Shown here: positions 23,316-38,927 of the stretch, piece after piece
Numbering within the stretch: position 1 is the stretch's first letter
Layout: the number at the start of each line of letters is the position of its first letter
From: Streptomyces sp. G44
GTDB taxonomy: Bacteria; Actinomycetota; Actinomycetes; Streptomycetales; Streptomycetaceae
Reading direction: 5' to 3'
Length of the DNA stretch: 64,000 bases
Assembly (NCBI RefSeq): GCF_016905445.1
Contig: NZ_JAFEXF010000002.1
Span: 62,001-126,000 of the forward strand
Notes under the pieces: model-generated
What the model saw: only the letters and a program-made list of their open reading frames with translations
Told to the model about the DNA's origin: nothing
Databases searched by the model: none
Program-made: the position numbers and the translations under genes

Positions 23316-25034
23316 TCATCTCGGCTTCCTGGGCCGGGTGCTGCGCCCGGTGGAGGGCCGCTTCGGCCGCCCGGCGCTCTGCGGCGCGGCGGTGTCGGCC
23401 TCGGGCATGGCGGAGGCGTCGGCGGGCAGGTCGGCCAGGCGGCGCAGCCGCCAGACCAGGACGTCGCTGACCGACTCGGCGGTGTCCAGTTCGCGGCGTG
23501 CCACGGCCTCGGCGAGCAGGGCGGCGGGCTCATGCCCGGCGGCTTCGACGTCGGCGAGGGTGGCGGCGAGCGCGTGCCAGCCGGGCTCGGTGAGGATCTG
23601 CTCGGCCAGCTCCGGCATCGCCTGGCGCAGGTGGTCCGCCTGGCGGCGCTGGAGTGGCTGGGAGAGGCGGCGGCCACGGTGGCGCAGGACGGCCATCGGG
23701 TGCTGGGCGGCGGACTGGTAGGCGGCGCGTAGGTGTTCGGCGGCCTGGCGGGCGGCAGCGGCCTGCTGGGCGTGGTTCTTCTTGCCGTGCCAGTGGGCCG
23801 CGGCGATGACCATGAAGGCGACCATGTCGATCACCATGGCGGTGGTGGCGCCGTCCTCGCCGCGGCCCAAGGCCGGCCCGCCGTAGATGAGGTCGCGGGC
23901 GGCCTGGCGCAGGGCGCGGTCGTGCCCGCGCTCGACCTGTACGTGGGAACGCGAGGCACGCTCGAAAGCGCGTGCCGCCTCACGGAGTTGCTTGCGGGTA
24001 TGGGCGGCGGACGTCTTGGCGAGGGCGTCGAGGACCTCACCGGCCGCCGCGATGAGGGCCGCAGCCTGACGGTCATTGCCGTGGTCGATGATCACGAGCG
24101 CCTGCCAGGCAGCGGCTGCCGCACGGCGCCGTGCCCGTGCCGGACCGCTCGGCGCGCTGGCGCGGTCGTCCGGCCCGGCGGCGTCCTGCTGGGTGGCCGA
24201 CCAGCGTTCGCGGATACGGGGCAGGGAGAGGTCGGGGGCGAGCGTGGAGCCTGCGAAGTAGACCGGCTTGTTGTCCTCGTTGCGGTCGTCGGTCAGGGCG
24301 ACCTTGTAGCCGAGCAGGTCACCGGAGGGTGCTTCGCGCTTGCGGACGAGCAGGCCGGCGGCGGCCAGCCGGTCGAAGAACTCCTCCTCGCTGGTGGCGC
24401 CGGCCACCGCCCGGCGGACGGTCTCACGCAGTTCCTCCCGGGCGGTCCGCTCCCGGCCCTGGCGCTCCGCTTTGTGGCGCTCCGCGCTGGTGGGCCGCTT
24501 GGCGGCAGTGCCGTCGCCCGCGTTGACCAAGGTCAGGCCCAACTCCTTTTCGATGAGACGGCATTCGGCCTGGGCCCGCATACCGGAGCGGAAGTCGTCG
24601 GGGCGGCTTCCGTCCTCGCACACGAGGGTTGCGACGATGTGGATGTGGTCGTCCGCGTGCCGTACGGCTGCCCAGCGGCAACCGGGTTCCCCGTCGCCGG
24701 GATCGATGCCGGTGGCGGCGACAACTTGGCGGGCGATGTCCGCCCATTCGTCGTCGCTTAGCCTGCGGTCGCCGGGTGCCGCACGCACCGACGTGTGCCA
24801 CACGGGCAGGGCGGGGCGGGAGTGTGGGGGGAGAGCCTCGACGGGCTGGTCGATGAGACCGGCAAGGTCCTTGATGGCGCGGTGGAAGTCGGCGCTGCGG
24901 CCGGGGTCGGGGGCCATGCCGTCGAAGGACGCGACGAGGTGCGGGTCGACGTGCTCCTCGGCACGGCCGGGACCGTACAAGTAGTAGAGGAGACCGGCGG
25001 TGTCGTCGCCTGGGTCGTTGATGCTGGGAATCAT
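23316..25034 (-). CDS. Relaxase / mobilisation nuclease (MobA/VirD2 type)
   Basis: 572 residues. The N-terminal 180 residues form a relaxase domain. RHADDHIHIVATL (residues 125-137) holds the three-histidine metal site (H126, H130, H132) typical of MobA/VirD2-like enzymes; the nucleophilic tyrosine is likely among YYLYGP near residues 17-22. It would nick the element's oriT, stay bound to the 5' end and pilot the strand. The middle (about 190-300) is basic and links to a long helical C-terminal half. MobC starts 7 bases upstream, and oriT is expected close to these genes. ATG at 25034 has a weak ribosome site, consistent with coupling to mobC. Confidence 0.87.
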   Translation of the reverse strand: MIPSINDPGDDTAGLLYYLYGPGRAEEHVDPHLVASFDGMAPDPGRSADFHRAIKDLAGLIDQPVEALPPHSRPALPVWHTSVRAAPGDRRLSDDEWADIARQVVAATGIDPGDGEPGCRWAAVRHADDHIHIVATLVCEDGSRPDDFRSGMRAQAECRLIEKELGLTLVNAGDGTAAKRPTSAERHKAERQGRERTAREELRETVRRAVAGATSEEEFFDRLAAAGLLVRKREAPSGDLLGYKVALTDDRNEDNKPVYFAGSTLAPDLSLPRIRERWSATQQDAAGPDDRASAPSGPARARRRAAAAAWQALVIIDHGNDRQAAALIAAAGEVLDALAKTSAAHTRKQLREAARAFERASRSHVQVERGHDRALRQAARDLIYGGPALGRGEDGATTAMVIDMVAFMVIAAAHWHGKKNHAQQAAAARQAAEHLRAAYQSAAQHPMAVLRHRGRRLSQPLQRRQADHLRQAMPELAEQILTEPGWHALAATLADVEAAGHEPAALLAEAVARRELDTAESVSDVLVWRLRRLADLPADASAMPEADTAAPQSAGRPKRPSTGRSTRPRKPR

Positions 25035-25041
25035 GCCGGGT

Positions 25042-25674
25042 TCATGCCGAGTTCTGCTGGCGGGCGATGAGCTGGGTCACGGCCTCGTGGACGCGGTCGG
25101 CCGCCGCGCGGACAGCGGCGATGGCCGACTCGAGCTGGGGTGCGTCAGCGCCGGAATTGAGTGCCTTGACGGCTTGGTTGAGGTTGCTGCCGGCCCAGCC
25201 GAGACGGCGGCGGGAGTCGAACAGCGCGGTGATCACTTCGCGGTCGTCGGCTATCTGGGCGGCGGTGCGGTCAACGTCGCGGGCGGCGCGCAGGGCGGAG
25301 CGGGCGAGGAAGCCGGCGACGGACAGTTTCGACTGGGCGGCGGCGGACTTGATCAGGGCGAACTCTTCATCGTTGAAGCGTGCATTGGGCTGGTGCAGAC
25401 GCTTCTTCTCGCGAGGCTGGCGCGGACGCTGACGGGCGCGCGGCGCTGCGGACGAGCGACGACGACGGCGGTTCGCTTCGTTCTTCCCCCCAGGCTTCGG
25501 TCCGCCCTCGGTCGAAGCCTGCCGGACCTGCGCCCCCTGGTGCAGGTCCGACTCCGCCCCCTTCAGGGCGGGGTCGGCGGAAGCTACGCTTCCGCCCCAA
25601 CTTGCTCCCCGCGAGAGGGCGTTGGCTACCGCCTCGTTGGGGGTATGGGGCTGCGTCTTGGTCGGGTGTGTCAT
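25042..25674 (-). CDS. mobC: MobC-like relaxosome accessory protein
   Basis: 210 residues from ATG at 25674 (AGGAA 9 bases upstream); the open frame to 25956 has no start context. After a basic disordered N-terminus (about residues 1-95; KNEANRRRRRSSAAPRARQR) comes the MobC domain: LHQPNARFNDEEFALIKSAA (ribbon-helix-helix-like, DNA binding), then DRTAAQIADDREVITALFDSRRRLGWAGSNLNQAVKALNSG, the 'GNNLNQ'-type signature. MobC helps to open oriT and places the relaxase. Its start overlaps the stop of the small upstream gene, and the relaxase follows 7 bases after its stop. Confidence 0.87.
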   Translation of the reverse strand: MTHPTKTQPHTPNEAVANALSRGASWGGSVASADPALKGAESDLHQGAQVRQASTEGGPKPGGKNEANRRRRRSSAAPRARQRPRQPREKKRLHQPNARFNDEEFALIKSAAAQSKLSVAGFLARSALRAARDVDRTAAQIADDREVITALFDSRRRLGWAGSNLNQAVKALNSGADAPQLESAIAAVRAAADRVHEAVTQLIARQQNSA

Positions 25675-25964
25675 CGGGTGCGGTTCCTCGTGGTGCGGGT
25701 GTGGAGTTGGATCTGGGCGGCGAGATCGACCATGGCGACGGGCCCGTCCAGGACGCGTACGGGGGCCTCGGGAGCGCTCTGCACGAGCCACTGACCGGTC
25801 GGGGCCAGGACAGCGGCGTGCAGGAGACGGCGGCGGACCAGGACTTCCGCCCAGGCGCTCGCTTCGGCTGCGGCCGGGATCGACGTACGGGAGTGGCGGG
25901 AGTGGATGGCGGGTCCTCCAGGGCCGGGGCGGTGGCCCGGCCCCGGGCTGGGCCACCGCTTCAC
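25671..25964 (-). CDS. Small hypothetical protein upstream of mobC
   Basis: Up to 97 residues from GTG at 25964; the stop overlaps the mobC ATG. Residues 29-90 (TSIPAAAEASAWAEVLVRRRLLHAAVLAPTG, WLVQSAPEAPVRVLDGPVAMVDLAAQIQLHT) look like a small folded unit, while the first 25 residues are Pro/Gly-rich and may not be translated. No good ribosome binding site was found for the GTG, so the real start is uncertain. No family recognised. Confidence 0.45.
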   Translation of the reverse strand: MKRWPSPGPGHRPGPGGPAIHSRHSRTSIPAAAEASAWAEVLVRRRLLHAAVLAPTGQWLVQSAPEAPVRVLDGPVAMVDLAAQIQLHTRTTRNRTR

Positions 25965-26001
25965 AGGGAGATAGGGCGTTTGACCTGCGGTTATCGCCTG
26001 G

Positions 26002-26193
26002 TCATCCGCATATCGGGCAGCCGTCGAAGTGCCGGCCGAGGGCTTTGGCCATGTGGGACTTCACGGCGAGGGCGTTGGTCGCGCTCGTTTTCGCCGCCTT
26101 TGTGCCTGCGCTGCGCTGGGAGTGGTTGCGCAGGTAGGTGATGTCCCGCTCGTAGCCGCGCTTGATGCGCTCGAAGCGCTCGCAGGTCTTCAT
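26002..26193 (-). CDS. Small basic protein
   Basis: 63 residues from ATG at 26193, with GAGGAGA upstream; ATG overlaps the stop of the DUF2637-type gene. Very basic helical sequence (FERIKRGYERDITYLRNHSQRS, TSATNALAVKSHMAKAL) ending HFDGCPICG, a C-x2-C pair at the extreme C-terminus; with C4 and H56/H58 it might bind zinc. A DNA-binding accessory role in transfer is possible. Short but strongly supported by its start context. Confidence 0.6.
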   Translation of the reverse strand: MKTCERFERIKRGYERDITYLRNHSQRSAGTKAAKTSATNALAVKSHMAKALGRHFDGCPICG

Positions 26194-27668
26194 CGGGCTC
26201 TCCTCGTGTCTCGGGGCAGGTGAGCGAGCGTCGGGTCGGCGTACAGGGCGGCCTGGAGGTCGCTGAACAGCTCGTTGCTGACCTTGATCTTGGCGCTGCG
26301 CAGGTGCGGTCGGAGGGCCCGGCGGGTCATCCGGCCTTCCGCGAGGGCGGCTCTGCGGGCGACCTCGATCTTCGCTTCCCACGGGACCTTGTCTTCTTGG
26401 TCCTCGGGCTTGGTCCGCGGATCCGGTGCAGAGGCGTCATGGTCTGTGGTCCGCGCCCCCTGCGGTCCGCCCGAGGAGCCGCCCTCGTCTTGGTCCGTCG
26501 GCGGGTCCAGCGGCTGGTCCGGTGCGGGGTTGGCCCGGTGGTCCGCGGCCGTGGCGTCGCGGTCCGCAGGGACGGAGGCGGCTGGTTGGTCCGTGGTCCG
26601 CGTCTCGTGGTCTGTGGTCTGCGGGTGCTCGCGGTCCGGCATCTGGTCCGCTGGGGCGCCCTGGTCCGCGCTCACCGGACCAGACCCTTCGGCCGGTCCG
26701 CGTACGTGGTCCGCCCGCTCGTGGTCCGCCAGACCATCGGGTCCTGGGGCCGCTTGGCCTGCGGCGTTGCTGGTCCGCCCCTCGCTGTCGGCCTCCCGCG
26801 GACCAGCGGCGATCTGCTGGTCCGCAGCGGTCACGTCGTGGTCCGCGACCTGGTCCGGCTGGTCCGGTGCGGGGTTGGTCCGCTGGTCCGCAGCCGTGGC
26901 GTCGCGGTCCGCAGGGACGGAGGCGGCTGGTTGGTCCGTGGTCCGCGTGCCGTGGTCTGTGGTCTGCGGGTGCTCGCGGTCCGGCATCTGGTCCGCTGGG
27001 GCGCCCTGGTCCGCGCTCACCGGACCACGCTCCTGGGCGGGTCCGTGTTTGTCGTTGGCGAGGGCGGGAGAGGGCGGTTGGTCCGTGGTCCGCCCGTGCT
27101 CGCGGTCCGGCGTCTGGTCTGCCCCGGCGCCCTGGCCCGCATTCTTCGGACCGGTCTGGGTCGCTCGTTCGTCGCCGTGGTCCGCTCGGTCGTGGTCCGC
27201 CGGGGCCTCCGCCGGATCCTGGTCGGCCGGGTGGTAGCGGGTGATGAGGATGTACAGATGGACCGCGCCGGCCAGGGCGAGTGGGGCGAGGGTGGAGAGC
27301 ACGGCGACGACCGTGTCCCCCAGCCGCAGACCGGAGCGGATGGTCTGCTGGTTGAGGCGGACCGCGTGCAGGGCGTTGGCCCAGATGCTTGCTGCGGTGG
27401 CGGTTCCGAAGAGTACCCAGACGTAGAGCCGGGCACGCAGCGGGGCCTCGGAGAGAACCAGCAGGGCCCGCACCCCGTAGGCGATGAAGCCGTCAATCAC
27501 GAGCGGGAAGAGGTAGGTGAGGAATCCGCGGATGTGGATGGCGACGGCCATCTGCTGCAGGGCGTCGTAGCTGAGGGCGCAGCCGGCAAGACCGAGGACC
27601 ACGATCGCGAGGCGGTCCCAGAAGCCGACGGGCGCGACGGCGGGGCGTGCAGCGGTGCGGTGGGTCAT
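26190..27668 (-). CDS. DUF2637-type membrane protein with long repeat-rich linker
   Basis: 492 residues from ATG at 27668, overlapping the WhiB-like gene's stop. Residues 15-145 form four membrane helices (LAIVVLGLAGCALSYDALQ, FPLVIDGFIAYGVRALLVL, LYVWVLFGTATAASIWANAL, AVLSTLAPLALAGAVHLYIL), characteristic of DUF2637/SpdB-like proteins found with FtsK/TraB DNA translocases in actinobacterial elements. Residues about 150-420 are an acidic, low-complexity 'ADQ/TDH/PDREH' linker holding a 57-residue duplication. The C-terminal 60 residues (KIEVARRAALAEGRMTRRALRPHLRSAKIKVSNELFSDLQAAL) resemble a winged-helix/DNA-binding end. Inferred role: membrane partner of DNA transfer. Confidence 0.78.
   Translation of the reverse strand: MTHRTAARPAVAPVGFWDRLAIVVLGLAGCALSYDALQQMAVAIHIRGFLTYLFPLVIDGFIAYGVRALLVLSEAPLRARLYVWVLFGTATAASIWANALHAVRLNQQTIRSGLRLGDTVVAVLSTLAPLALAGAVHLYILITRYHPADQDPAEAPADHDRADHGDERATQTGPKNAGQGAGADQTPDREHGRTTDQPPSPALANDKHGPAQERGPVSADQGAPADQMPDREHPQTTDHGTRTTDQPAASVPADRDATAADQRTNPAPDQPDQVADHDVTAADQQIAAGPREADSEGRTSNAAGQAAPGPDGLADHERADHVRGPAEGSGPVSADQGAPADQMPDREHPQTTDHETRTTDQPAASVPADRDATAADHRANPAPDQPLDPPTDQDEGGSSGGPQGARTTDHDASAPDPRTKPEDQEDKVPWEAKIEVARRAALAEGRMTRRALRPHLRSAKIKVSNELFSDLQAALYADPTLAHLPRDTRRAR
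26512..26682 (-). repeat. 171-bp direct repeat, copy 1
   Basis: Near-identical to 26857-27027, same orientation, 345 bases apart start to start. Both copies are in frame in the DUF2637-type gene and encode a 57-residue segment running from ...PVSADQGAPADQ to ...TNPAPDQP. Multiple of three, so recombination between the copies would keep the frame. Confidence 0.85.
26857..27027 (-). repeat. 171-bp direct repeat, copy 2
   Basis: Second copy of the repeat at 26512-26682; only a few base differences (for example Gly versus Glu codon after TTDH, and Gln versus His after ATAAD). Both lie in a region with the heptamer GGTCCGC repeated many times. Confidence 0.85.
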
Positions 27669-28294
27669 GCGGCCTTTCCGAGCGAGGAGATCAGGGCGTG
27701 GGACTGCACCTCGCGACCGTGTGTCGCGGCGTGCTTCTCGTCCGGGTTGCCGGGGTGAGGCTCGCGGAGCTTGCCGTCGGTCTCCTCCACGAGGCCCCAG
27801 TACAGGTCGCGCGCCTCGATGGCGCGGGCGGCCTCGCGCATCAGGTCACGGGTCCAGTCGAGGTCGGCGTTGAGCCGGTGGGCCACGCGTTCCGGGCTCC
27901 AGCCGCGCAGGTGCAGTTGATGGATGACGGTGCTGCGCTCCGCCGTACTCAGGGGGACGTCGCGGCCCTGGAGGGTGGCGCGAACGCGGTCGTAGTCCAG
28001 ACGCTCACCGCGTTTCTTCAGCCACGGCTGGCGCTCCTTGTCGGTCAGGCCGCCCCAGATGCCGAAGATGACCTGGTGGTCGATCGCGTAGTTGAAGCAG
28101 TCCTTCTTCACTGGGCAGGTGGCGCATATCTGCTTTGCCTCGGCGATGGCTCGGCGGTCCCGGACCGTGTGGAAGAACAGCTTGTCGGCGCGGGCCGGGG
28201 CCATGCCATAGCAGGCGCCCCGGGCGTGCCAGCTGTGGTCGCCGGTGCCCCGCAGGTCCGGCGCGGGCGAGTCGTTGGTGGTCTTGTAGCGCAA
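27665..28294 (-). CDS. WhiB-like [4Fe-4S] protein with C-terminal extension
   Basis: 209 residues from TTG at 28294 (GGAG 7 bases upstream); the open frame to 28660 overlaps the helicase-loader gene and is rejected. The Wbl core holds four cysteine ligands, C28, C57-x2-C60-x5-C66, followed by FGIWGG (residues 77-82), the G-[IV]-W-G-G turn. A basic region then contains ERLDYDRVRATLQG and STVIHQLHLRGWSPERVAHRLNADLDWTRDLM, a helix-turn-helix-like extension not present in ordinary Wbl proteins (usually about 80-130 residues). It probably binds sigma factor region 4 or DNA in response to redox or NO, and may control this transfer/replication operon. It overlaps the next gene's start. Confidence 0.85.
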   Translation of the reverse strand: MRYKTTNDSPAPDLRGTGDHSWHARGACYGMAPARADKLFFHTVRDRRAIAEAKQICATCPVKKDCFNYAIDHQVIFGIWGGLTDKERQPWLKKRGERLDYDRVRATLQGRDVPLSTAERSTVIHQLHLRGWSPERVAHRLNADLDWTRDLMREAARAIEARDLYWGLVEETDGKLREPHPGNPDEKHAATHGREVQSHALISSLGKAA

Positions 28295-28421
28295 GGGAGT
28301 CTCCGAGGTCGCCTCGCAGGAAGGCGGGCAGGGCAGCACCGCGGTGCGGCGATGTGCGGCGAGGCGGGACAGGGTGCGGCGGACAGGGCCGCACGGTGGG
28401 ATCAGTGGCGCAGGAGGCAGG

Positions 28422-29177
28422 TCAGCGGCGCTGGAAGCGGCGGTCGGGCCCGGTGAACTCGACGGCGGTACACATGCCGGACAGGCGGGAGAGGACCCGG
28501 TCGCCGAGCTTGTCGCGCAGCACCGCCTGGCGTGCGGGCATCCGGTCGGTGCGCACGGGCGGCATGTTGCTGGTGAAGATCGTCGGCAATCGGTTCTGAC
28601 AGCGCCAGTTGACCAGCCGGAAGGTGATCTCCTCGGTCCACTCGCTCGGCTTGGCTGCACCGAGGTCGTCGAGCAGCAGAACCGGGATTCGCATGATCCG
28701 CCGCAGCAGGTACTCAGAATCCGCCCCGGCGCGCGGACGCAGCTCGGCGTACAGGTCGGCGGCGGTGGTGGCGTGCCAGTTGACTCCGCATCCGGCGGCG
28801 GTCAGGGCGCGGATCGCGCCGAATGCCTCGTGCGTCTTGCCGGCTCCGGTGGGACCCCACAGCAGCAGGCTGGGCCCGTGCGTGATCTGCCTGCGCCCGG
28901 CGGTGCCGTAGTGCGGATTGACGCCCTCGGCGTTCGGCGCCACGGCGTTGTCGGCGATGGCCCGCACCCACGCGGCGACCTCCGGGTGCTCGGGCAGCGC
29001 GGCGCGGTAGTTGACCGGGATGCGCGCCTGGGCGGCCTCCAGGGCCGGGATCGGCTCCGGGGTGTCCGGCAGGGGACGGTCCAGGTCCAGGCCGCGCTCG
29101 GCGAGTTTGACCTCCAGGCGCTCACGCAGCCGCTCGGAGATCGCCGGCTGCGGGTCGGCGTAGCGGGCGCGGGTCAC
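28422..29177 (-). CDS. DnaC/IstB-like helicase loader ATPase
   Basis: 251 residues, GTG at 29177 overlapping the replication initiator's stop. Walker A GPTGAGKT (residues 108-115), Walker B VLLLDDLG (166-173), and the sensor-like TIFTSNMPP (about 195-203), with DKLGDRVLSRLSGMC as the arginine-finger region. This is the AAA+ ATPase order of DnaC and DnaI/IstB proteins. It should load a replicative helicase onto the origin opened by the initiator. The initiator/helicase-factor pair mirrors the rep1/rep2 organisation of phage-like origins described for Streptomyces plasmids. Confidence 0.87.
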   Translation of the reverse strand: MTRARYADPQPAISERLRERLEVKLAERGLDLDRPLPDTPEPIPALEAAQARIPVNYRAALPEHPEVAAWVRAIADNAVAPNAEGVNPHYGTAGRRQITHGPSLLLWGPTGAGKTHEAFGAIRALTAAGCGVNWHATTAADLYAELRPRAGADSEYLLRRIMRIPVLLLDDLGAAKPSEWTEEITFRLVNWRCQNRLPTIFTSNMPPVRTDRMPARQAVLRDKLGDRVLSRLSGMCTAVEFTGPDRRFQRR

Positions 29178-30235
29178 AGGTGGCCTCCAAACGTCGTGGG
29201 CTCGGCGGTGGGGTTGAGATACGGCGTGTAGGAGCTTCCGGTGCTGGCCCAGGGCCCCGCCCCGGAGGCGGACGACAGGGCGGCATCCGACTGGGGTGCG
29301 GCGTTGACGACCTCGTTCACCAGGCTCGGCAGGACGCTGGGGTTGAGCCCCTTGGCCCGCAGCTTGTCGAGTGCGGCGCGAATGTCGTCGGCCTCGAACC
29401 GCTCGTCGAGCAGGGCGTTGACCTTCCGGCCCAGATGGCCGAGGAAGTCCTCCGGAGGACGGCGGTTGCAGCCTCGGACGTACTCGCCCACCAGCTGCTT
29501 GGCCGAGACCTTGACCGAGGAGGCGTCGGGCGCGGGCGCCTCGCGCCCCGTAAGGAAAGATCCAGGATCCAAGATCCTAGATCCAGGGCGTGACTCCTCC
29601 CGTAGTCCTCCCGTAGTCCTCCGGGAGCCCTCCGGTAGTGCCATCTGACCTGCGGCTTTACCCGTAGGCGTCGAATCGGCGCCCGTGGAGGCGCCGACCG
29701 TCGCCGTCTCGGACGCCAGAGCACGTTCCGAGGCGTCGGTGGTGTGGGTGAGAGGGCTGGGGAGTCCTCCGTGCGGGCTCCGGGAGTCCTCCGGGAGTTC
29801 TCCGGGAGGAGTCAGTGCCGCCGAGGGCGATGCCTCTGTGCGCGTGCTGGGGCAGGCCGCGCCCTGGCACTTGCCGCAGTGCTGACGGGCCTGGTGGCTG
29901 GGGCAGCGCGGCAGGCGAGAAGCGGTCGCCTTGTTGATCTTCTGGTGCTGGTCCCAGGTGACGATGTGCAGCCAGGTCCGCCCGTCGCATCCGGTGTAGC
30001 GGCACACCAGCCCGGCCGAGGCCAGCTCGTCCAGGTCGCGGGCGACGTGGGTGGCGGTGTGCTCCGGACGCAGGGCCCACAGCCGTCCGGCGATGATCGC
30101 GGGGTGGTCGCGGTGTCGGCCGGAGTCGTCGGCCTGGGTCAGGAGCCCGAAGAAGGTCCGCTCGGCAGTGAGGCTGACCGAGGCCAGGTCCTCCGACTCG
30201 AACGCCTCGGGCTTGATCGTGCGGATGCGTGCCAT
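29174..30235 (-). CDS. Replication initiator with winged-helix N-terminus
   Basis: 353 residues, ATG at 30235 with GGAGG about 9 bases upstream. The N-terminus MARIRTIKPEAFESEDLASVSLTAERTFFGLLTQADDSGR is the signature of phage and plasmid replisome-organiser proteins; residues 1-120 should form the DNA-binding winged helix. A Cys/His patch (CPSHQARQHCGKCQGAAC, about 110-128) could be a zinc site. The middle (130-245) is poorly conserved, Ser/Pro-rich and contains the iterons. The C-terminal region (LVGEYVRGCNRRPPEDFLGHLGRKVNALLDERF) is a helical domain likely to contact the loader. It would bind the iterons, melt the origin and recruit the DnaC-like protein. Confidence 0.82.
   Translation of the reverse strand: MARIRTIKPEAFESEDLASVSLTAERTFFGLLTQADDSGRHRDHPAIIAGRLWALRPEHTATHVARDLDELASAGLVCRYTGCDGRTWLHIVTWDQHQKINKATASRLPRCPSHQARQHCGKCQGAACPSTRTEASPSAALTPPGELPEDSRSPHGGLPSPLTHTTDASERALASETATVGASTGADSTPTGKAAGQMALPEGSRRTTGGLREESRPGSRILDPGSFLTGREAPAPDASSVKVSAKQLVGEYVRGCNRRPPEDFLGHLGRKVNALLDERFEADDIRAALDKLRAKGLNPSVLPSLVNEVVNAAPQSDAALSSASGAGPWASTGSSYTPYLNPTAEPTTFGGHL
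29559..29586. repeat. Four tandem 7-bp repeats GATCCNN
   Basis: GATCCAG, GATCCAA, GATCCTA, GATCCAG at 29559, 29566, 29573 and 29580, exactly tandem, inside the replication initiator gene and next to the first iteron cluster. A 7-bp period is not a multiple of three, so the repeat is not a protein repeat. It may be a binding site or a DNA-unwinding/flexible element of the origin. Confidence 0.65.
29593..29636. repeat. Origin iterons, cluster 1 (four 11-bp repeats)
   Basis: Four tandem 11-mers: ACTCCTCCCGT, AGTCCTCCCGT, AGTCCTCCGGG, AGCCCTCCGGT. Consensus AGTCCTCCGGG. Located within the replication initiator gene. The period of 11 shifts the reading frame at each unit, so selection must act on DNA. 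Interpreted as initiator-binding iterons of the replication origin. Confidence 0.72.
29763..29806. repeat. Origin iterons, cluster 2 (four 11-bp repeats)
   Basis: AGTCCTCCGTG, CGGGCTCCGGG, AGTCCTCCGGG, AGTTCTCCGGG, same orientation and consensus as cluster 1, whose first unit starts 170 bases earlier. Two iteron clusters within one initiator gene fit an internal, phage-like origin. Confidence 0.72.
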
Positions 30236-31302
30236 CAGGCCCCACCTCCGACGCTGTGCCGGAGCGGGCCCCGCCCGACCGGCATGCGGTCACGGGCATT
30301 GGACAGGGGGCGGCCTGCCGCGCCGGCCGGGCGAACCGGCCTTTTGCGCAGGGCAGCGCGCATGCAACACTCTCCTCTGAAGTAGAAGCCGCTCCGGGGC
30401 GTGTTTGGGAATTGGCCCGGTGCGGTGATGGTGGGTAAATCTCCGGCCCTTGCACGGGCAGGAGTTCCATTTGGCGGTCGGCGTCTGGGAGTTGCACCTC
30501 TCAGGCGCCGCCGCTGTTTTCTGGGCTACTCGGCCCGGCCGATTCGCATGAAGCCCACGCTGTTCCTCCTCGTCTCTGTCGCCGGGCGGGATGCCCGGCG
30601 AGGGACGACGAACATATGCGGGCGCCGCGACAAGATCCAGACTTAGCTAAAGGCTGCGGTACAAGTCGCAGAGGGAGGGCGTCGGCACCTGCGTCTGCGG
30701 GTCGAGGCCACGGGCCGTGCTGCGGGCAGCCGTCGGATCGCTCCGAGCATCCCGGAGATGATCTGCACTGCGACCCCCCTGCGCCTCTTGTCACAACATG
30801 TTGAACCGGCTGGTCAGAAGGATTTAAGCCAAGCCTCACCAGTAGCGTCAACGACGATCTTTTGCCCGATTTACATGCATAGATCAGGTGTGATGCGCCC
30901 ACTCGCCGATCCGCCTACGGGGTCGTAAGTAGCTTGCTGCGTAAGTGGAATGGGGTGCTCCACTGCTACGGGCGGCCGATTTGACAGTCTGGTCTAGACC
31001 GCCCTCAGTGGCCGGGAACGAAAACCGGCAATCTTTTGCCGGTTTCGCGGAGTGATCTTGACCTGTCCGTCGAGATGCCCGATTCGCCAGTGAACGTCTC
31101 CTTGGGGTGACCGAGTTCCGTTCAGTAATAAACAATGCATTCCGCACGGTATGTGGGCGAGGCCACAGGTGGTCAAGATCGCCAAATTTTTGCGTATGGT
31201 CGTGGTGGGGAGACGACAGGGCGGGGGCCAGCTATTGCGCTGACCCCCCTTTTTCATGCCCAAAAACAGGCGTCTCGGCCCGAGAGGAGAGGGAGGATCT
31301 CA
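30236..31302. other. Divergent control region between replication and regulator genes
   Basis: About 1.07 kb with no supported gene. It is less G+C rich than its surroundings near 31.1-31.2 kb. Visible elements: the palindrome GGTCTAGACC (30991-31000) just after a TTGACA at 30981, and the stem-loop at 31022-31045. It should hold the promoters of the minus-strand replication operon and of the MmyB-type regulator. Small frames here lack start signals. Confidence 0.5.
31022..31045. promoter_or_regulatory. Stem-loop in the divergent control region
   Basis: Perfect 10-bp inverted repeat AAACCGGCAA (31022-31031) and TTGCCGGTTT (31036-31045), loop TCTT. The A...T-bordered stem could be a bidirectional terminator or a repressor site for the neighbouring regulator. 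Confidence 0.5.
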
Positions 31303-32739
31303 ATGGTCGCGAAGGAACCGGACCAGCCCGACAGCAACGGCGCTGCCGAAGAGGAGACCTCCGACACAAGCGCAGAGCAGCACCCCGACGCGGGCAGGGC
31401 CGGTGCTGCGGAGGCAGAACTCATGCCCGCGCGCCCCACGCCCGCTGGCCAGTTCATCGGCTTCGGCGCGATGCTCAAGCGGTGGAGGAAGGCCGCCGGG
31501 GTCACGCAGCCTCGCGCCGCCCGCGCCCTGGGCATCAGTGAGCGCAAGCTGCGCGGCATCGAATCCGGCGCCACGCCGCGCTTCACGCAGGAGCAGTGCG
31601 ACGCCCTGGTCGAGCTGCTGCAGCTCGACTCCGAGGATCGCCACGCGCTGCTGCTCCACAACGTCGGCACCTACCTGCGGTCCGCCGAGGGGCAGCCCGA
31701 GGTGGGCCCCGCGCTGCGCCTGCTCATCGACCAGCAGATGCCCAGCCCCACGTACCTCAGCGACAGGAACTGGAACATCCTCGCGTACAACACCGCGATG
31801 GCCGAGACCTGGCCGTGGGTGATGGAGCCGAAGGCCAACCTGATCAGGTGGGCGCTAACCACCGCCGAGGGGCGCGCGACCTACCACGACTGGCACAAGC
31901 ACGCCACGGTCTTCGTGCGGATGCTCCGCTTCGCGGAGACCACCCACGGCGACGACCCCAACCTCCAGGAACTGATCGAGGACGTCAAGAAGAACCCTGA
32001 GGTGCTCCGCATCTGGGAGTCGGACACCGACTTCGTGGAGCACCGCGACGGGCACGTGTTCCTCGCCACCGTGCCGACGCTCGACTACCGGACGATCGAG
32101 ATCGTCAGCCACGTCGCTTACCCGGCGATCATGCCCGACTGCCGGTTCGTCGTCATGACGTGGGTCGAGGCCGGAGCCGAGGTGGAGCCCGATGCCCAGC
32201 GCGACGCCCTCGGCGGTGTCCGTGACGCCTGGGCGGACGAGACGCACAACGGTGCACACGAGCGGGACCGGGCGCTGGGCCGGATCGCCGAGGCAGACCG
32301 CCTTCGCGCGGAAGACCTTCGTACGGCCCGCCTTTTGGTCAGCAGCGCGGCGCAGGCCGCAGCCCAGGCGGGCGAGGACGCCATCCCTCTGCCTGCCCTC
32401 AGCCGCCTCATGGGCCCCGACGCCCAGCTGACGCTCTCGCCCTCCAAGCGGAGCGTGTTCTGGGCAGTGGAAGAAAGCGCTGGCCAGTGGGGCGTCACCG
32501 AAGTAGCACCGACGACGGTGATCGCACGGGTCCCGCGCAAGGAACTGACCGGCGAGCGGCTCGTCGAGATGAAGCAGCTCGTGCGCCTGGCGCTGCCCGC
32601 CGAGCCAGAGGCCGCCGCGGCGCGCATCGAACAGCTCCTCAGCGAACGCGACGTCGAGCAGCGCATACTCCGCGACATCCTGGCCGAGCTGCCCCTGCCC
32701 GGCAGCGACCCACCGAACTCACATGACGAGGCAGCCTAG
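31303..32739 (+). CDS. XRE-family regulator with MmyB-type ligand-binding domain
   Basis: 478 residues from ATG at 31303 (GGGAGGA 6 bases upstream); the upstream frame to 31135 is not supported. A disordered acidic N-terminus (1-45) precedes a Cro/CI-type helix-turn-helix (about 52-112: MLKRWRKAAGVTQPRAARALGISERKLRGIESG). Residues about 135-300 match the MmyB ligand-binding fold (SPTYLSDRNWNILAYNTAMAETW, LIRWALTTAEGRATYHDW), proposed to bind a fatty-acid-like ligand. The remaining 150 residues are a helical extension ending in a Glu-rich helix. As it is divergent from the replication/transfer operon, it is a good candidate for controlling it. Confidence 0.8.
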   Translation: MVAKEPDQPDSNGAAEEETSDTSAEQHPDAGRAGAAEAELMPARPTPAGQFIGFGAMLKRWRKAAGVTQPRAARALGISERKLRGIESGATPRFTQEQCDALVELLQLDSEDRHALLLHNVGTYLRSAEGQPEVGPALRLLIDQQMPSPTYLSDRNWNILAYNTAMAETWPWVMEPKANLIRWALTTAEGRATYHDWHKHATVFVRMLRFAETTHGDDPNLQELIEDVKKNPEVLRIWESDTDFVEHRDGHVFLATVPTLDYRTIEIVSHVAYPAIMPDCRFVVMTWVEAGAEVEPDAQRDALGGVRDAWADETHNGAHERDRALGRIAEADRLRAEDLRTARLLVSSAAQAAAQAGEDAIPLPALSRLMGPDAQLTLSPSKRSVFWAVEESAGQWGVTEVAPTTVIARVPRKELTGERLVEMKQLVRLALPAEPEAAAARIEQLLSERDVEQRILRDILAELPLPGSDPPNSHDEAA

Positions 32740-32790
32740 GGTCCGTACCGGTCCCGCAGCCGAGCCCGGCACCGCATGCGCCGGAACCAA

Positions 32791-32822
32791 TGCGGCAGGC
32801 GTGGCTCGCCACGCCTGCCGCA
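32791..32822 (+). terminator. Strong hairpin terminator
   Basis: Perfect 15-bp stem (32791-32805 and 32808-32822) with a 2-base loop, 52 bases after the MmyB-type gene and 31 bases before the thioesterase start. Confidence 0.75.
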
Positions 32823-32853
32823 GTCTCACCCTTCTTCCCGAAAGAATCCACAC

Positions 32854-33261
32854 GTGGACAGGTACACCTACCCCTGCCCGCTGCGCTGGGCTGACGCCGA
32901 TGCGTACGGGCACGTCAACAACGCGCTGTATCTCCGCTTCATGGAGGAGGCGCGCACGCGGATGTTCCAGGAGGTGCTGCCCGCGGACGAAGCAGATCGC
33001 CGTCGGCACGCGTTCGTCGTCAGCCGAGCTGCTGTCGAGTACCGCGTCCCTCTGCAGTACCGCGAGGACCCTGTCGACGTGTGCGTCAAGGTCGCCCAAC
33101 GCAAGGGTGTGTCATTCGATCTGGCCTATGAGGTTCGCGATGCGGATCACGTGTACGCCGAGGGCACGACCACCATCGTCGCCTACAACCTGGATACAGG
33201 ACGGCCCCGCCGTCTCTCCGACGTCGAGCTGGCATTTCTGGACCGCTACACGGAGTCCTGA
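32854..33261 (+). CDS. Hotdog-fold acyl-CoA thioesterase (4HBT family)
   Basis: 135 residues from GTG at 32854; the extension to 32776 overlaps the terminator stem. RWADADAYGHVNNALYLRFMEEAR (residues about 9-32) is the catalytic element of YbgC/FadM-type thioesterases, with the active-site Asp in the first helix region (D12/D14) and the H-V-N-N turn. Later EYRVPLQYREDPVDVCVKV and VYAEGTTTIVAYNL supply the central strands. It should hydrolyse acyl-CoA thioesters in the cytosol. Free-standing here, downstream of a terminator. Confidence 0.82.
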   Translation: MDRYTYPCPLRWADADAYGHVNNALYLRFMEEARTRMFQEVLPADEADRRRHAFVVSRAAVEYRVPLQYREDPVDVCVKVAQRKGVSFDLAYEVRDADHVYAEGTTTIVAYNLDTGRPRRLSDVELAFLDRYTES

Positions 33262-35682: not shown

Positions 35683-37158
35683 ATGGAACAGGCGTTCTAC
35701 TCATCAGAGGGCTGGGAAAGCTGGGGCTTGGAGTTCAAGCCGGTCATTCCTGAGGGGATGGTGCTCGTCTTCGACGACGACCTTCGGTTTGAAGACGAGC
35801 ACGGCTTGCGTACCTCAGCGATCGTGAACCGGTGGGCCTGCGAGCTTCCGACCAACGGATGTCCTGCGGCGAACTCCTGGACATCGTATGTCGGCGCCGT
35901 ACGTCAGTGGTCGGAGTTCGGAGAAGAACACGGGGTCGGCCTCTTCGACAGCCGTGAGCGCCTCAAGGCGCTGCTGAGCGCCTACGCGGTCCACCGCTCG
36001 CAAGGGCCCATCAACGGCAGGCAGAGGTTCAAGGTCGTCACGTGGAACCAGCACATGACCATGCTCAGCATCTTCTACGCCTGGGCGATCGAGAACGACT
36101 ACACCACGTCCCTGCCGTTCACCTACCGGCAGGCCACGGCCGTCTTCTCCGGGCAGCGACGGGAGGTCCGCCGGAACTCCGCCCGGCGCCGCCAGCCGAA
36201 GCCCCACGTGACCATCAAGTACCTGGAGGACGAGTTCGCCGACCTGTTCCACAAGGGCCTGGCCCGGCTGCAGCCCGACGGCTCGGTGGAGCGCGGCTAC
36301 CGCGGCCGGGAGATGGCCCGCAATGCGGCGGTTGGCCGGTTCGTCTTCTCCTCCGGGCCGCGCAAGCAGGAGTTCTCCTACCTACTGGCCTGCGAGGTGC
36401 CGAAGTTGCCCAGCCGCCGCAGCGAGGTGCCAGTCCTCGTCCCGCTGTCGGAAGGCATCACCAAGGGCAGCAAGTTCCGAAACGCGTGGATCAACTACGA
36501 CGCGCTGGCTGAGCTGCACAACTACCTGGAGTTCGAGCGGGCCGCAGCAGTTCAGGGATCGACCTGGATGCCGCCGCGGCGCTGGGGCGAACCGCTCATC
36601 GTGACTGAGGCGACGGTCCTGGGTGGCAGGGTCAACGGCGCCTGGACGACCTGGGAAACGCTGGGCCCGCCCGAACGCCGCCGGCTCGTCGCGCCCGGAG
36701 GCGGGTCGATGCTGCTCTCCGTGTGCGGCCCGGGGCGCCCGTTCACCGACTGGAACACTGTGTTCAAGCGGACATCGGACCGGATCCGTGAACGCTACGA
36801 ACCGCGATTCCCCCATGTCACCCCCCACCGCGGGCGCCACACCTTCGCCATGCAGACCATGGCCAAGCTGGTGCGCGGCTACTACGAGCGGACCGCACGT
36901 CTGGTCAAGGACGGCGATGACGACGCGGGACTGGCGTTGTACCTCAAGACCACCGAGCCGCTGCTGGTCCTGCGTGACCTTCTTGGCCACTCCAGTGTCC
37001 TGACCACGGAAATTTATCTCAATCGACTGGATACGACCCGAATCTTCGCCGAACTGCACCGGCGGGTCGGCGAGGCCATCGGGCTCTTGCCAGCGTCGGC
37101 CGTCCGCGAGGCCGAAGCGGAGTTCGACGACGAAGACGACGACAGCGAGGACCTCTGA
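35683..37158 (+). CDS. Tyrosine recombinase 1 of the RIT/Tn554-like trio
   Basis: 491 residues, ATG at 35683. The C-terminal half is a tyrosine recombinase catalytic domain: GPRKQEFSYLL (first Arg, about residue 226), HRGRHTFAMQT (H-x-x-R, about 382), LLGHSSVLTTEIYLNRLD (last His and the nucleophilic Tyr, about 437-447). The N-terminal part carries a SAM-like core-binding domain (VGAVRQWSEFGEEHGVGL...). TnpA-like proteins of Tn554 and the first gene of recombinase-in-trio elements have this length and layout. Its stop overlaps the next ATG (TGATG), so the trio is translationally coupled. Recognition site probably near 35601-35669. Confidence 0.85.
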   Translation: MEQAFYSSEGWESWGLEFKPVIPEGMVLVFDDDLRFEDEHGLRTSAIVNRWACELPTNGCPAANSWTSYVGAVRQWSEFGEEHGVGLFDSRERLKALLSAYAVHRSQGPINGRQRFKVVTWNQHMTMLSIFYAWAIENDYTTSLPFTYRQATAVFSGQRREVRRNSARRRQPKPHVTIKYLEDEFADLFHKGLARLQPDGSVERGYRGREMARNAAVGRFVFSSGPRKQEFSYLLACEVPKLPSRRSEVPVLVPLSEGITKGSKFRNAWINYDALAELHNYLEFERAAAVQGSTWMPPRRWGEPLIVTEATVLGGRVNGAWTTWETLGPPERRRLVAPGGGSMLLSVCGPGRPFTDWNTVFKRTSDRIRERYEPRFPHVTPHRGRHTFAMQTMAKLVRGYYERTARLVKDGDDDAGLALYLKTTEPLLVLRDLLGHSSVLTTEIYLNRLDTTRIFAELHRRVGEAIGLLPASAVREAEAEFDDEDDDSEDL

Positions 37159-38927
37159 TGCCTGCCACCGTACTCGAGGATCCGCTGGGCCTCGCCGCCG
37201 TCTTCAGCGACGGGACGAGCGCGTCGATGATGGTGAACGTCACGGCGGGCGGCAAGACCTACGCCACACGGAACCCTGCCCTCGCTCAGGACATGCTGCT
37301 GGGGCTCGCCGATCTCGTACACCCGCACGGCGACATCGACGCGAGGCGCACACTCAACGACTACACCGCGGCGATCCGCGCACTGACCAACGATCTGGCC
37401 GACCAGGGCTTTGCCGGCGGCGCCGCCGAGTTGACGCGTGCTCACCTGGCCCAACACTGGATGAGAGGTAACCACCGTGCCGCACTGGAGTCCCTCAGCC
37501 GCCGGATGCTCGCCCGCGCCGACGATCTCCATGGACTGCTCAAAGCGGATGTTCGGGAAATGGTGGACGGCCGCCATTTCCAGGTCCAGCGCCAGTCCGA
37601 GAGCACGCTCGCTCCGTACACCGAGAGCGAGTGGGCCCGGCTGGCCAAGGCATGCGAGACGGTCGTCAAGGATTCGTACTCCGCCTTCCGCAGAGCAAGG
37701 AGAGCCGCTGAAGACGGACAGGATCCGCTCAAGGGCGGATGGAGCGAGGCCAACGTGTACTGGGCCTATGTGCAGTTCGGACCGGTGGAGGCGACGCGAT
37801 ACGCCGACTGGTCGCCGGGCCACTTCTCCGGTCTGCCGGAGAGGCGGTTCCCGTACCGCAAGGTCGCCGTCTCGGCGCTGCTGTTCCCCGATGCCTCCAC
37901 CGTGCTGGCCTACCGACTGTTGTTGGGCATCTACACCGGCATCGTGCCCGACGGCTTGGACGACCTCGGGCTGGGTGATGTGGACTGGGCCGGCGAGTCG
38001 ACCATCCTGCTCTCCTACATCAAGGGCCGCACGGCCGAGGAGAGCCGGACTCTGACGAAGCGGGCCAGCCGACTGCTGGAGCAGTGGCTGGACCACTCCT
38101 CTGTAACCCGCAAGTTCGCTCCGGCGCACATGCGTGACGCCTTGTGGGCGCGCTACGTACCCCGCGGCGTGCACCACTGGGTGACCACGGCGACCAGCAA
38201 CGAGACGAGCCAGAAATGGATCCTTTCGCAAGGGCTCCTGGCCGACGACGGCGGACCGCTGCAATTGCACCTGCACCGGATCCGGACGACCTATGACTCG
38301 ATGCGGGACCGCCGCTCATGGGCGGGCAGCCGACGCGCGACGCTGGATCCCAACCGCAGCCCGCAGGTCGAAGCCGACCACTACCTCGGCGCCGGCACAC
38401 CCGAACAGCAGGCCCTGGTCGAGGAGATCATCGTCGAGGCGCAGAACGACATGCTGCGCAAGGCCGAGCCGCCGATGGTGCTTGCCACCGAGGACGCCGC
38501 AACCCTGGTGCGGGATTACCCTGAGCAGGTCGCCGCTCTCGGACTGGACGACACGGCGCTCGCCGAGCTCGTCCGCGGGGAACGGGATGTCTTCAGCGCC
38601 GCCTGCGGCGACCACCTGTCGGGACTGCACGGGCCCAAGGGCAAGTCGTGTCCCGCCCGACCATGGGTCTGCCTGCTCTGCCCGCTGGCACTGTTCACTC
38701 CGCGGCACCTGACGAACCTGATGCGCCTGCGCGCGTTCTTCGCCCGTCAGTGGGACCAGAGGACTGCCGAGGAGTTCATGCGGAACTTCGGCCCGTACGA
38801 CCAGCGGGTAGCCGAGATTCTCGCCCCCGACGTCTACTTCCCCTCCGCGACGCTGCTGGAGGCCGCAGCCCAAGTAGCTGATACCGACGACGAGCTGCCC
38901 CTGCGGCCGGAAGAGACGACGCGATGA
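37158..38927 (+). CDS. Tyrosine recombinase 2 of the trio
   Basis: 589 residues, ATG overlapping the preceding stop. Size and position match TnpB-like proteins. The catalytic domain lies in residues about 215-420: LLLGIYTGIVPDGLDDLGLGDVDW occupies the place of the first-Arg motif, but that Arg is not evident; LQLHLHRIRTTYDSMR supplies the H-x-x-R-like box, and SPQVEADHYLG the likely Tyr. A Cys-rich segment near the C-terminus (about 480-515: FSAACGDHLSGLHGPKGKSCPARPWVCLLCPLAL) resembles a zinc-binding motif typical of this recombinase branch. In trios the three proteins are thought to act together. Its stop overlaps the next ATG. Confidence 0.8.
   Translation: MPATVLEDPLGLAAVFSDGTSASMMVNVTAGGKTYATRNPALAQDMLLGLADLVHPHGDIDARRTLNDYTAAIRALTNDLADQGFAGGAAELTRAHLAQHWMRGNHRAALESLSRRMLARADDLHGLLKADVREMVDGRHFQVQRQSESTLAPYTESEWARLAKACETVVKDSYSAFRRARRAAEDGQDPLKGGWSEANVYWAYVQFGPVEATRYADWSPGHFSGLPERRFPYRKVAVSALLFPDASTVLAYRLLLGIYTGIVPDGLDDLGLGDVDWAGESTILLSYIKGRTAEESRTLTKRASRLLEQWLDHSSVTRKFAPAHMRDALWARYVPRGVHHWVTTATSNETSQKWILSQGLLADDGGPLQLHLHRIRTTYDSMRDRRSWAGSRRATLDPNRSPQVEADHYLGAGTPEQQALVEEIIVEAQNDMLRKAEPPMVLATEDAATLVRDYPEQVAALGLDDTALAELVRGERDVFSAACGDHLSGLHGPKGKSCPARPWVCLLCPLALFTPRHLTNLMRLRAFFARQWDQRTAEEFMRNFGPYDQRVAEILAPDVYFPSATLLEAAAQVADTDDELPLRPEETTR

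Follow-up and report, generated by a model that had tools for sequence, protein, structure and literature searches.

A candidate two-part replication origin inside a phage-type initiator gene of Streptomyces, and a protein residue that co-varies with its predicted iterons

Results

The initiator gene and its internal repeats

A gene for a phage-type replication initiator lies on the reverse strand of a 64,000-nucleotide stretch of DNA from Streptomyces sp. G44 (the window; positions 62001-126000 of contig C222, 178,902 bp, in a draft assembly of 8.37 Mb), and its middle carries two kinds of short tandem repeat that together form a candidate origin of replication. In profile searches, the encoded protein matched phrog_2149 (E 2.5e-28, residues 2-317) and phrog_1408 (E 8.9e-27, residues 1-123), both of which are annotated as 'replication initiation protein' of phage type; the same searches gave no Pfam match at E <=0.01 and no NCBIfam match. 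The next gene overlaps the 3' end of the initiator gene and encodes a helicase loader, with matches to PF01695 and to phrog_50, the DnaC-like helicase loader family. The original prediction, made from the sequence before this analysis, had described an initiator gene with internal repeats followed by a helicase-related gene. The initiator and its adjoining replication gene were both found, the latter as an AAA+ loader of the IstB/DnaC type and not as an established helicase. The loader gene adjoined the initiator gene in 39 of 39 compared loci, a few of which are near-copies of each other. The features of the two genes are as follows.

29174..30235, reverse strand: initiator gene, 353 amino acids, phrog_2149 and phrog_1408 matches
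28422..29177, reverse strand: DnaC/IstB-like AAA+ helicase loader (PF01695, E 3e-11; phrog_50, E 2.8e-31)
29546..29556, reverse strand: conserved tract (C/T)T(A/T)(C/A/G)GGG, just downstream of the 7-bp array on the coding strand
29558..29585, reverse strand: short-repeat array, proposed opening or loading element, units TGGATCT, AGGATCT, TGGATCC and TGGATCT
29591..29634, reverse strand: proximal iterons (predicted), four 11-bp units of a 10-bp palindrome GGAGnnCTCC plus spacer
29646..29653, reverse strand: box GCAGGTCA, upstream of the proximal iterons
29761..29808, reverse strand: distal iteron cluster (predicted), unit GGAGnnCTCC plus spacer, from Tandem Repeats Finder (TRF) and a unit scan
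29933..29935, reverse strand: codon of residue 101 (Asn, in HQKINK), proposed from co-variation as the determinant of the outer base pair

TRF and the unit scan together confirmed that the repeats lie where they had been predicted. In the TRF output the 7-bp array spans 29557-29585 with 4.1 copies, and the two 11-bp arrays span 29595-29639 (4.1 copies) and 29760-29808 (4.5 copies). Two clusters of four 11-mers had been proposed. The proximal cluster does hold four units, and the distal one holds three good units (29761-29770, 29783-29792 and 29794-29803) with a weaker, degenerate fourth in between. The natural unit appears to be the palindrome GGAGGACTCC plus one spacer base, rather than a bare direct repeat, and the 11-bp units stand in a fixed register to the 7-bp array. 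A search for the 11-mer elsewhere, which had been suggested, found the exact sequence CCCGGAGGACT twice in the window, both times in the initiator gene, and no window-wide enrichment (44 matches at <=2 mismatches versus 41.5 expected). The 7-bp array, searched as a pattern with <=2 mismatches, occurred once in the 8.37-Mb assembly and nowhere else in it. Perfect 7-mer runs of the types (GGATCGC)n, (GGATCCC)n and (GGATCAG)n are found elsewhere in Streptomyces genomes (L049, L058, L062, L070 and others, L numbers denoting the loci compared); the simple (GGATCGC)n and (GGATCCC)n runs from the pattern scan were not counted as evidence.

The 11-bp periodicity was compared with synonymous-codon shuffles that leave the protein and the codon counts unchanged (200 shuffles per gene for this test). 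The best 33-nt stretch of the window gene at lag 11 had 29 of 33 matches, as against a shuffle maximum of 24 (n=200). In clade A, which comprises the window gene and L002-L047 (n=47), periodicity at lag 11 was reached by at most 1 in 200 shuffles in 26 of 47 genes, a count that is not one of independent cases because many of the genes are close relatives. In clades B and C, lag 22 was often stronger than lag 11.

Two further short elements accompany the arrays. The box GCAGGTCA was present in 57 of 73 array-bearing genes at offsets of -57, -68/-69 and -80 from the array, that is, in steps of 11-12 bp, and the rare codons GCA and GGT were retained there (residues 195-196) in a codon-constraint scan; it is a possible third origin element. 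The tract at 29546..29556 was recognized from column counts in clade A and from codon constraint at residues 228-230.

Constraint on the 7-bp array

The 7-bp array was present in 47 of 47 clade A genes and was near-invariant, third codon positions included: its positions -5 to +22 were fixed except for three columns, at 44, 43 and 46 of 47. Among the 42 non-redundant genes of the 47, the nine codons of the array had a mean entropy of 0.19 versus 0.83 for 100 other conserved degenerate columns, of which 10 also fell below 0.15. All array codons except ATC are minority codons, AGG and TTG making up 4.7% and 3.4% of their synonyms elsewhere in the genes. In the codon-constraint scan, the twelve best nine-codon windows fell within residues 214-233; of the 28 top columns, 24 lay in the repeat region, residues 154-230.

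The array was next followed beyond clade A, in a set of 85 distinct genes (12 loci without a recognisable gene and seven near-duplicates being left out), 73 of which have a GGATC-type array by pattern. Ten clade B genes carry a variant array (mostly GGATCTAGGACCTAGGATCMTGGATCTAGG) one reading frame over, the encoded peptide being GSRILDPGS in clade A and DLGPRI(M/L)DLG or a close variant in these ten, with the overall pattern DLGPR(I/T).DLG. In L065 the array is of a third kind, read in the clade A frame. Since the seven-base period is retained across frames, it is not a protein repeat, and the original prediction was borne out on this point. A protein-level cause for the conservation of GSRILDPGS was also considered; it was rejected on account of the array variant in the other frame and the fixed minority codons. 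The constraint acts on DNA, and an element retained despite a change of reading frame is a clear case of overlapping coding and DNA-level function.

Co-variation of residue 101 with the outer base pair of the 11-bp unit

Units in register with the array have the form xGAGnnCTCx' plus spacer, and their outer pair differs between clades on both sides of the palindrome: GGAG..CTCC in the window's clade, CGAG..CTCG in a second group, and TGAG..CTCA mixed with GGAG..CTCC in a third. A rule connecting the outer pair with residue 101, which is Asn or Asp in HQKI[N/D], was guessed from about 30 genes and then tested on the 85, the Asn label having been widened to G/T after a finer guess failed. All 75 labelled genes agree with the rule (45/45 Asn with G/T, 30/30 Asp with C). 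The same is true of the 26 labelled genes among the 28 that were fetched after the guess (L106-L145; 26/26). The 10 unlabelled genes of the 85 comprise five with Asp, in which C is the commonest base at <60%, three mixed ones with Asn (in L141, T stands at 50%), and two with too few sites. Measured as mutual information, the label was wholly explained by residue 101 (0.971 of 0.971 bits). Ranked below it were columns at residues 144-232, most of which the repeat region encodes, as well as residues 57 (0.62), 69 and 292. Half-sites at the fixed position adjoining the array, where no scanning is involved, had C in 55 of 70 cases with Asp versus 1 of 76 with Asn.

Of the 75 labelled genes, 74 went into a quick tree, one being set aside for its over-long reading frame; the wing motif and the middle of the protein were not used in building it. 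On it, residue 101 and the outer pair change seven times each, the changes coincide, and every row is concordant. In one such case, L010, the protein is 92% identical to that of the window over residues 1-92 and 81% over residues 231-353, the middle being 29% identical, and its residues 93-110 are identical to those of L020. Judged from this alignment, the L010 switch is a block replacement of the wing and the iterons together. The original prediction had asked whether the iterons move with the gene. The 7-bp array does so throughout clade A, and the L010 swap points the same way; as for the 11-bp arrays, the closest homologues have strong ones and other homologues weak ones.

Predicted structure of the initiator

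The AlphaFold model of the initiator has a confident winged-helix N-terminal domain (approximately residues 1-110) and a four-helix C-terminal domain (residues 245-311), whereas most of the middle (approximately residues 130-240) has a predicted confidence score (pLDDT) of <50 and is predicted to be disordered. Since the repeats encode a stretch of very low model confidence, the protein there is probably unstructured, a linker. In the model, residue 101 directly follows the strand 98-100 and lies at the edge of the wing. A fold search with the model returned many winged-helix domains at Z 7-8, among them Fur, TFE, ORC2 and the initiator N-domains 4pql and 4pt7; it matched winged helices in general and singled out no specific relative. 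Sequence searches of the PDB with the initiator and with the relaxase-like protein encoded downstream (see below) gave no match.

In-gene arrays in phage and plasmid initiators

Eleven distant homologues from phages and plasmids were examined, and in six of them both array types beat the shuffles: Gordonia phages Bosnia and Gsput1, Mycobacterium phage Bernal13, a Rhodococcus plasmid, Bordetella phage IFTN1 and Bifidobacterium pMP7017. The 11-mers in gp90 of Gordonia phage Spooky (L083:1995-2663) are almost identical to those of the window, the proteins being about 31% identical.

A viral set of 106 distinct genes from 137 loci was then assembled, and 104 of the 106 were analysed for arrays. 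A 5-, 7- or 8-bp array beat all 60 shuffles in 89 of 104 viral initiators versus 1 of 124 other open reading frames (ORFs) of the same loci. A helical-period signal (10, 11, 21 or 22) was found in 80 of 104 versus 14 of 124 control ORFs, the lag 10 signal being partly a harmonic of the 5-bp arrays, and in 34 of 104 a distinct helical array began 36-61 bp ahead of the short one. Since the 104 genes were collected from two array-bearing seed proteins, these counts show persistence by descent. The short unit was the 8-bp GGGGAACA in 49 of the 89 viral arrays and a 5-bp unit in 25; AAGGATC-type units occurred in only two of the 89, the GGATC-type array being that seen in the Streptomyces homologues. 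Viral short arrays are 85% purines on the coding strand, and their GC content is 57% versus 63% for the genes, the array being the lower in 78 of 89. Initiators of PHROG 2149/1408 in Gordonia, Mycobacterium and Streptomyces phages share the N-domain family of the window protein, and many have both kinds of array, but their short arrays are mostly the 8-bp GGGGAACA or 5-bp ones. In-gene repeat arrays as a trait of the PHROG 2149/1408 family are proposed here, there being no published criterion; the window gene has the trait.

The base-pair tally in distant genes took in 67 of 122, from a pool that included plasmid and a few cellular loci; an earlier viral tally (Asp with C, Ser-Lys with G) had taken in 53 of 76. 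Among distant Asp genes with at least two chained sites (n=35), 31 had a majority of C and four were mixed, in a set that is inflated because the search peptide KHQKIDRP favours Asp genes. In three distant Ser-Lys genes, 23 of 24 half-sites had G. Several distant Asn genes have no xGAGnnCTCx' sites, and the Asn row L162 is a Streptomyces gene that stands outside the phage count. A viral scan with the window protein found no relative, and one with the Spooky protein found two loci. A class-wide search gave matches in 17 of 148 genomes, including the window's own and two other Streptomyces; 15 of these 17 loci (L146-L162) yielded no gene under the motif filter and were not used.

Neighbouring genes and replicon context

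Downstream of the loader gene lie four more genes in the same orientation.

27665..28300 as scanned (longer ORF 27665-28660), reverse strand: WhiB-family gene (PF02467, E 6.7e-20)
26190..27668, reverse strand: DUF2637 protein (PF10935, E 2e-9)
25042..25956, reverse strand: NikA/MobC-like mobilization protein (PF21983, E 1e-6), in the same order as the annotated MobC of plasmid L079
23316..25034, reverse strand: relaxase-like protein (NF041325 MobB, E 3.5e-13, under its cut-off)

The relaxase-like protein had no Pfam match in the profile search; its counterpart in L079, 53% identical, is annotated as a relaxase. A relaxase homologue was found in 34 of the 39 compared loci (a few of them near-copies), and of the other five, four are shorter loci cut by contig ends and one, L088, is without the module. 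The module of initiator, loader, WhiB, DUF2637, MobC and relaxase genes (23316-30235) recurs at differing chromosomal positions in Streptomyces. Streptomyces are known for double-stranded DNA transfer of the TraB type, and a MobC-relaxase module is a mobilization set of the single-stranded type. An XRE/MmyB-type regulator and a YbgC-like thioesterase (31135-33261) flank the module here as they do in plasmid L079. Further on, 35683-40711 holds a run of three large ORFs, possibly a recombinase trio: the first shows a weak tyrosine-recombinase tail under the cut-offs, and neither of the other two matched a family in the profile search.

Of 199 Streptomyces genomes sampled, 70 have a homologue of the initiator, the window's own genome being one of the 70. 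Of the 20 stretches from complete genomes, 19 (all except L084) are on contigs of at least 7.4 Mb, at differing positions, and two homologues are on large records labelled as plasmids. No integrase over cut-off was found in the window, the nearest PF00589 match being at C222:162756, about 70 kb away, and contig C222 had no match to TraB/FtsK (PF01580). Searches of the contig and the window thus did not find the plan of an actinomycete integrative and conjugative element, in which a TraB/FtsK-type translocase and an integrase stand beside the initiator gene. Of the features of an integrative mobilizable element, the relaxase-like and MobC-like genes are present, without an integrase over cut-off in the window. 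The gene order supports a replication-mobilization module that is probably mobile, and the candidate origin most likely belongs to such a module, residing in the chromosome as an element that is mobilizable or was once mobile.

Discussion

We propose that the initiator gene contains, in its middle, a lambda-type origin of replication in two parts, in which residue 101 takes part in recognizing the iterons and the loader is recruited to the short array; we put the probability of this reading at about 80%. The winged-helix domain of the initiator would bind the palindromic 11-bp iterons GGAGnnCTCC, which follow one another at intervals of one helical turn, and residue 101 would read their outer base pair. 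Initiator dimers would stack on one face of the helix and reach the 7-bp array, which may be opened, may be bound as single strands, or may be the landing site of the DnaC-like loader, and the loader from the next gene would bring in the host helicase. The reading brings together the layout of the repeats, the DNA-level constraint, the recurrence in the family, the co-variation of residue and base pair, and the neighbouring loader gene. From these we infer binding by the initiator, opening at the short array, recruitment of the loader and activity of the copy in this genome. The position of a precise oriV within the initiator gene, as first proposed, is kept as a prediction.

A close parallel is the origin of lambda and Stx phages, which lies inside the O gene and consists of inverted-repeat iterons and an AT-rich tract, with O and P side by side and with iterons that are 19-bp imperfect inverted repeats, according to a published account (PMC7466680). 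The two arrangements are alike in having the origin in the middle of the initiator gene, inverted-repeat iterons, a second tract beside them and an adjoining loader gene; they differ in that the window gene has 10-bp palindromes every 11 bp and, as the second part, a short-period repeat array rather than a plain AT-rich tract. The window protein, having no Pfam family at E <=0.01, did not fall in the lambda O sequence family, and it may be regarded by analogy as an initiator that works like O outside the O-protein family. Iterons inside rep1 of Streptomyces linear plasmids are known from the older literature. In plasmids of the pSLA2/pSCL type, rep2 is described as the helicase and rep1 as its iteron, in a 2026 report (PMC13152386). 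These plasmids, which were compared by description only, likewise have a rep gene followed by a second replication gene, but the second gene in the window encodes an AAA+ loader, and the copies in complete genomes are mostly on chromosome-sized contigs. To our knowledge, the RK2 oriV and DnaA-trio origins are not inside an initiator gene. Plasmids and DnaA provide known cases of initiators binding to repeats within the opening region, and RK2 oriV and the DnaA-trio of oriC resemble the present arrangement in having double-stranded sites beside a short repeat that is perhaps bound single-stranded, according to a review (PMC10797057). Their initiators belong to other families.

Several observations weigh against our proposal. 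The lag-11 test did not reach 1/200 in 21 of 47 clade A genes and in 10 of 11 clade B/C genes, L012, L015, L016 and L018 retain little beyond the box adjoining the array, and 12 of 85 homologues lack a GGATC-type array by pattern. Of the distant homologues, Gordonia phage Spooky has the 11-bp array alone, Streptomyces phages Alderaan and Ididsumtinwong and Pseudomonas phage IME307 have the short array alone, and Streptomonospora phiM2 has a weak short array alone. The GC content of the viral short arrays is only modestly lower than that of their genes, so the term 'opening element' is weaker than the term 'iteron'. As to residue 101, the unlabelled Asn genes L012 and L126 have C as the commonest base at 50%, and a finer rule, 'Asn-Arg reads T', was dropped since those genes show G about as often as T. 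The three sites before the one adjoining the array are weaker, with C in 39 of 70 Asp versus 18 of 76 Asn half-sites, then 27 versus 14 and 27 versus 15. Of the testable Asn phage genes, four of six have at least 60% G/T, L166 and L318 being those that do not, and the Asp excess in distant genes is inflated by the search peptide. The seven coincident changes on the quick tree are few as independent events (4/4 on well-supported branches, sign test p 0.125), and because the wing and the iterons were swapped as a block, the switch events may be recombinations.

Other explanations of the repeats were weighed against the same evidence. It is unlikely that the array is a relic, an ancestral phage or plasmid origin whose chromosomal copies are silent and retained by descent alone. 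The chromosome-sized contigs of the complete-genome homologues, the lack of an integrase over cut-off in the window and that of a TraB/FtsK match on the contig would suit such a relic, but continuing selection is indicated by third-position invariance across genes down to about 50% protein identity and by the residue and the base pair switching together, and two homologues are on large plasmid-labelled records. Palindromic 10-mers one helical turn apart would also suit a dimeric repressor, and the fold search rows include the winged-helix repressors Fur and MecI; the repeats might then be operators for autorepression by the initiator, or for another dimeric regulator, with replication starting elsewhere. 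We regard this as distinctly improbable, for the sites are about 430-640 nt inside the gene, away from its start, a second and unrelated short array follows them, and comparable arrangements occur in phage initiator genes that have other neighbours.

The MobC-like and relaxase-like genes of the same module raise the thought that the repeats are an origin of transfer (oriT) or MobC-binding sites. Phage homologues also have the arrays, however, in annotated stretches of a few kb that show no relaxase, and it is with a residue of the initiator that the base pair co-varies, so that this explanation seems very improbable. That the repeats are coding repeats or products of replication slippage, with no function in the DNA, is scarcely credible: short tandem units can arise by slippage, and unrelated (GGATCGC)n microsatellites exist in Streptomyces, but the units here are imperfect and the array is nevertheless conserved, the synonymous shuffles and the control ORFs argue against codon usage, and the reading frame is not conserved, a change that we take to refute this explanation.

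Taking the proposed origin together with the distant genes, we lean towards a broader claim, which seems somewhat better than an even chance: that there is a large phage-plasmid initiator family with an in-gene two-part origin (xGAGnnCTCx' every 10-11 bp, then a G-rich array of 5-, 7- or 8-bp units), in which the outer pair is set by the wing-edge residue (Asp, C; Asn, G/T; Ser-Lys and Gln-Lys, G), the whole forming a cassette whose parts match each other and which can be exchanged as a block. The open PubMed Central literature contained, among the matches listed, no description of the two-part origin or the residue rule, subscription papers being outside this scope, and text searches for the repeat strings returned unrelated papers only, again among the matches listed. 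Lambda has a known iteron origin within a gene, and such origins have been reported for Streptomyces linear plasmids; this initiator family, from actinobacterial and other phages, would be a new setting for them. Candidate origins have been located in many phages and in elements of about one-third of the sampled Streptomyces genomes. The relation of residue 101 to the outer base pair is a directly testable rule; if the family is as proposed, origins of many unannotated phages could be read from their sequence, and the incompatibility of replicons could be predicted from one residue.

The repeat peptides of phage initiators, such as ERNREQGTGKGTGNRE, look like by-products of 7- or 8-bp DNA arrays (AACAGGG, AACAGGGG) in loci L082, L165, L166 and L170 and in the viral loci L171-L306, which suggests that in these proteins repetitive peptides arise secondarily from repeats in the DNA.

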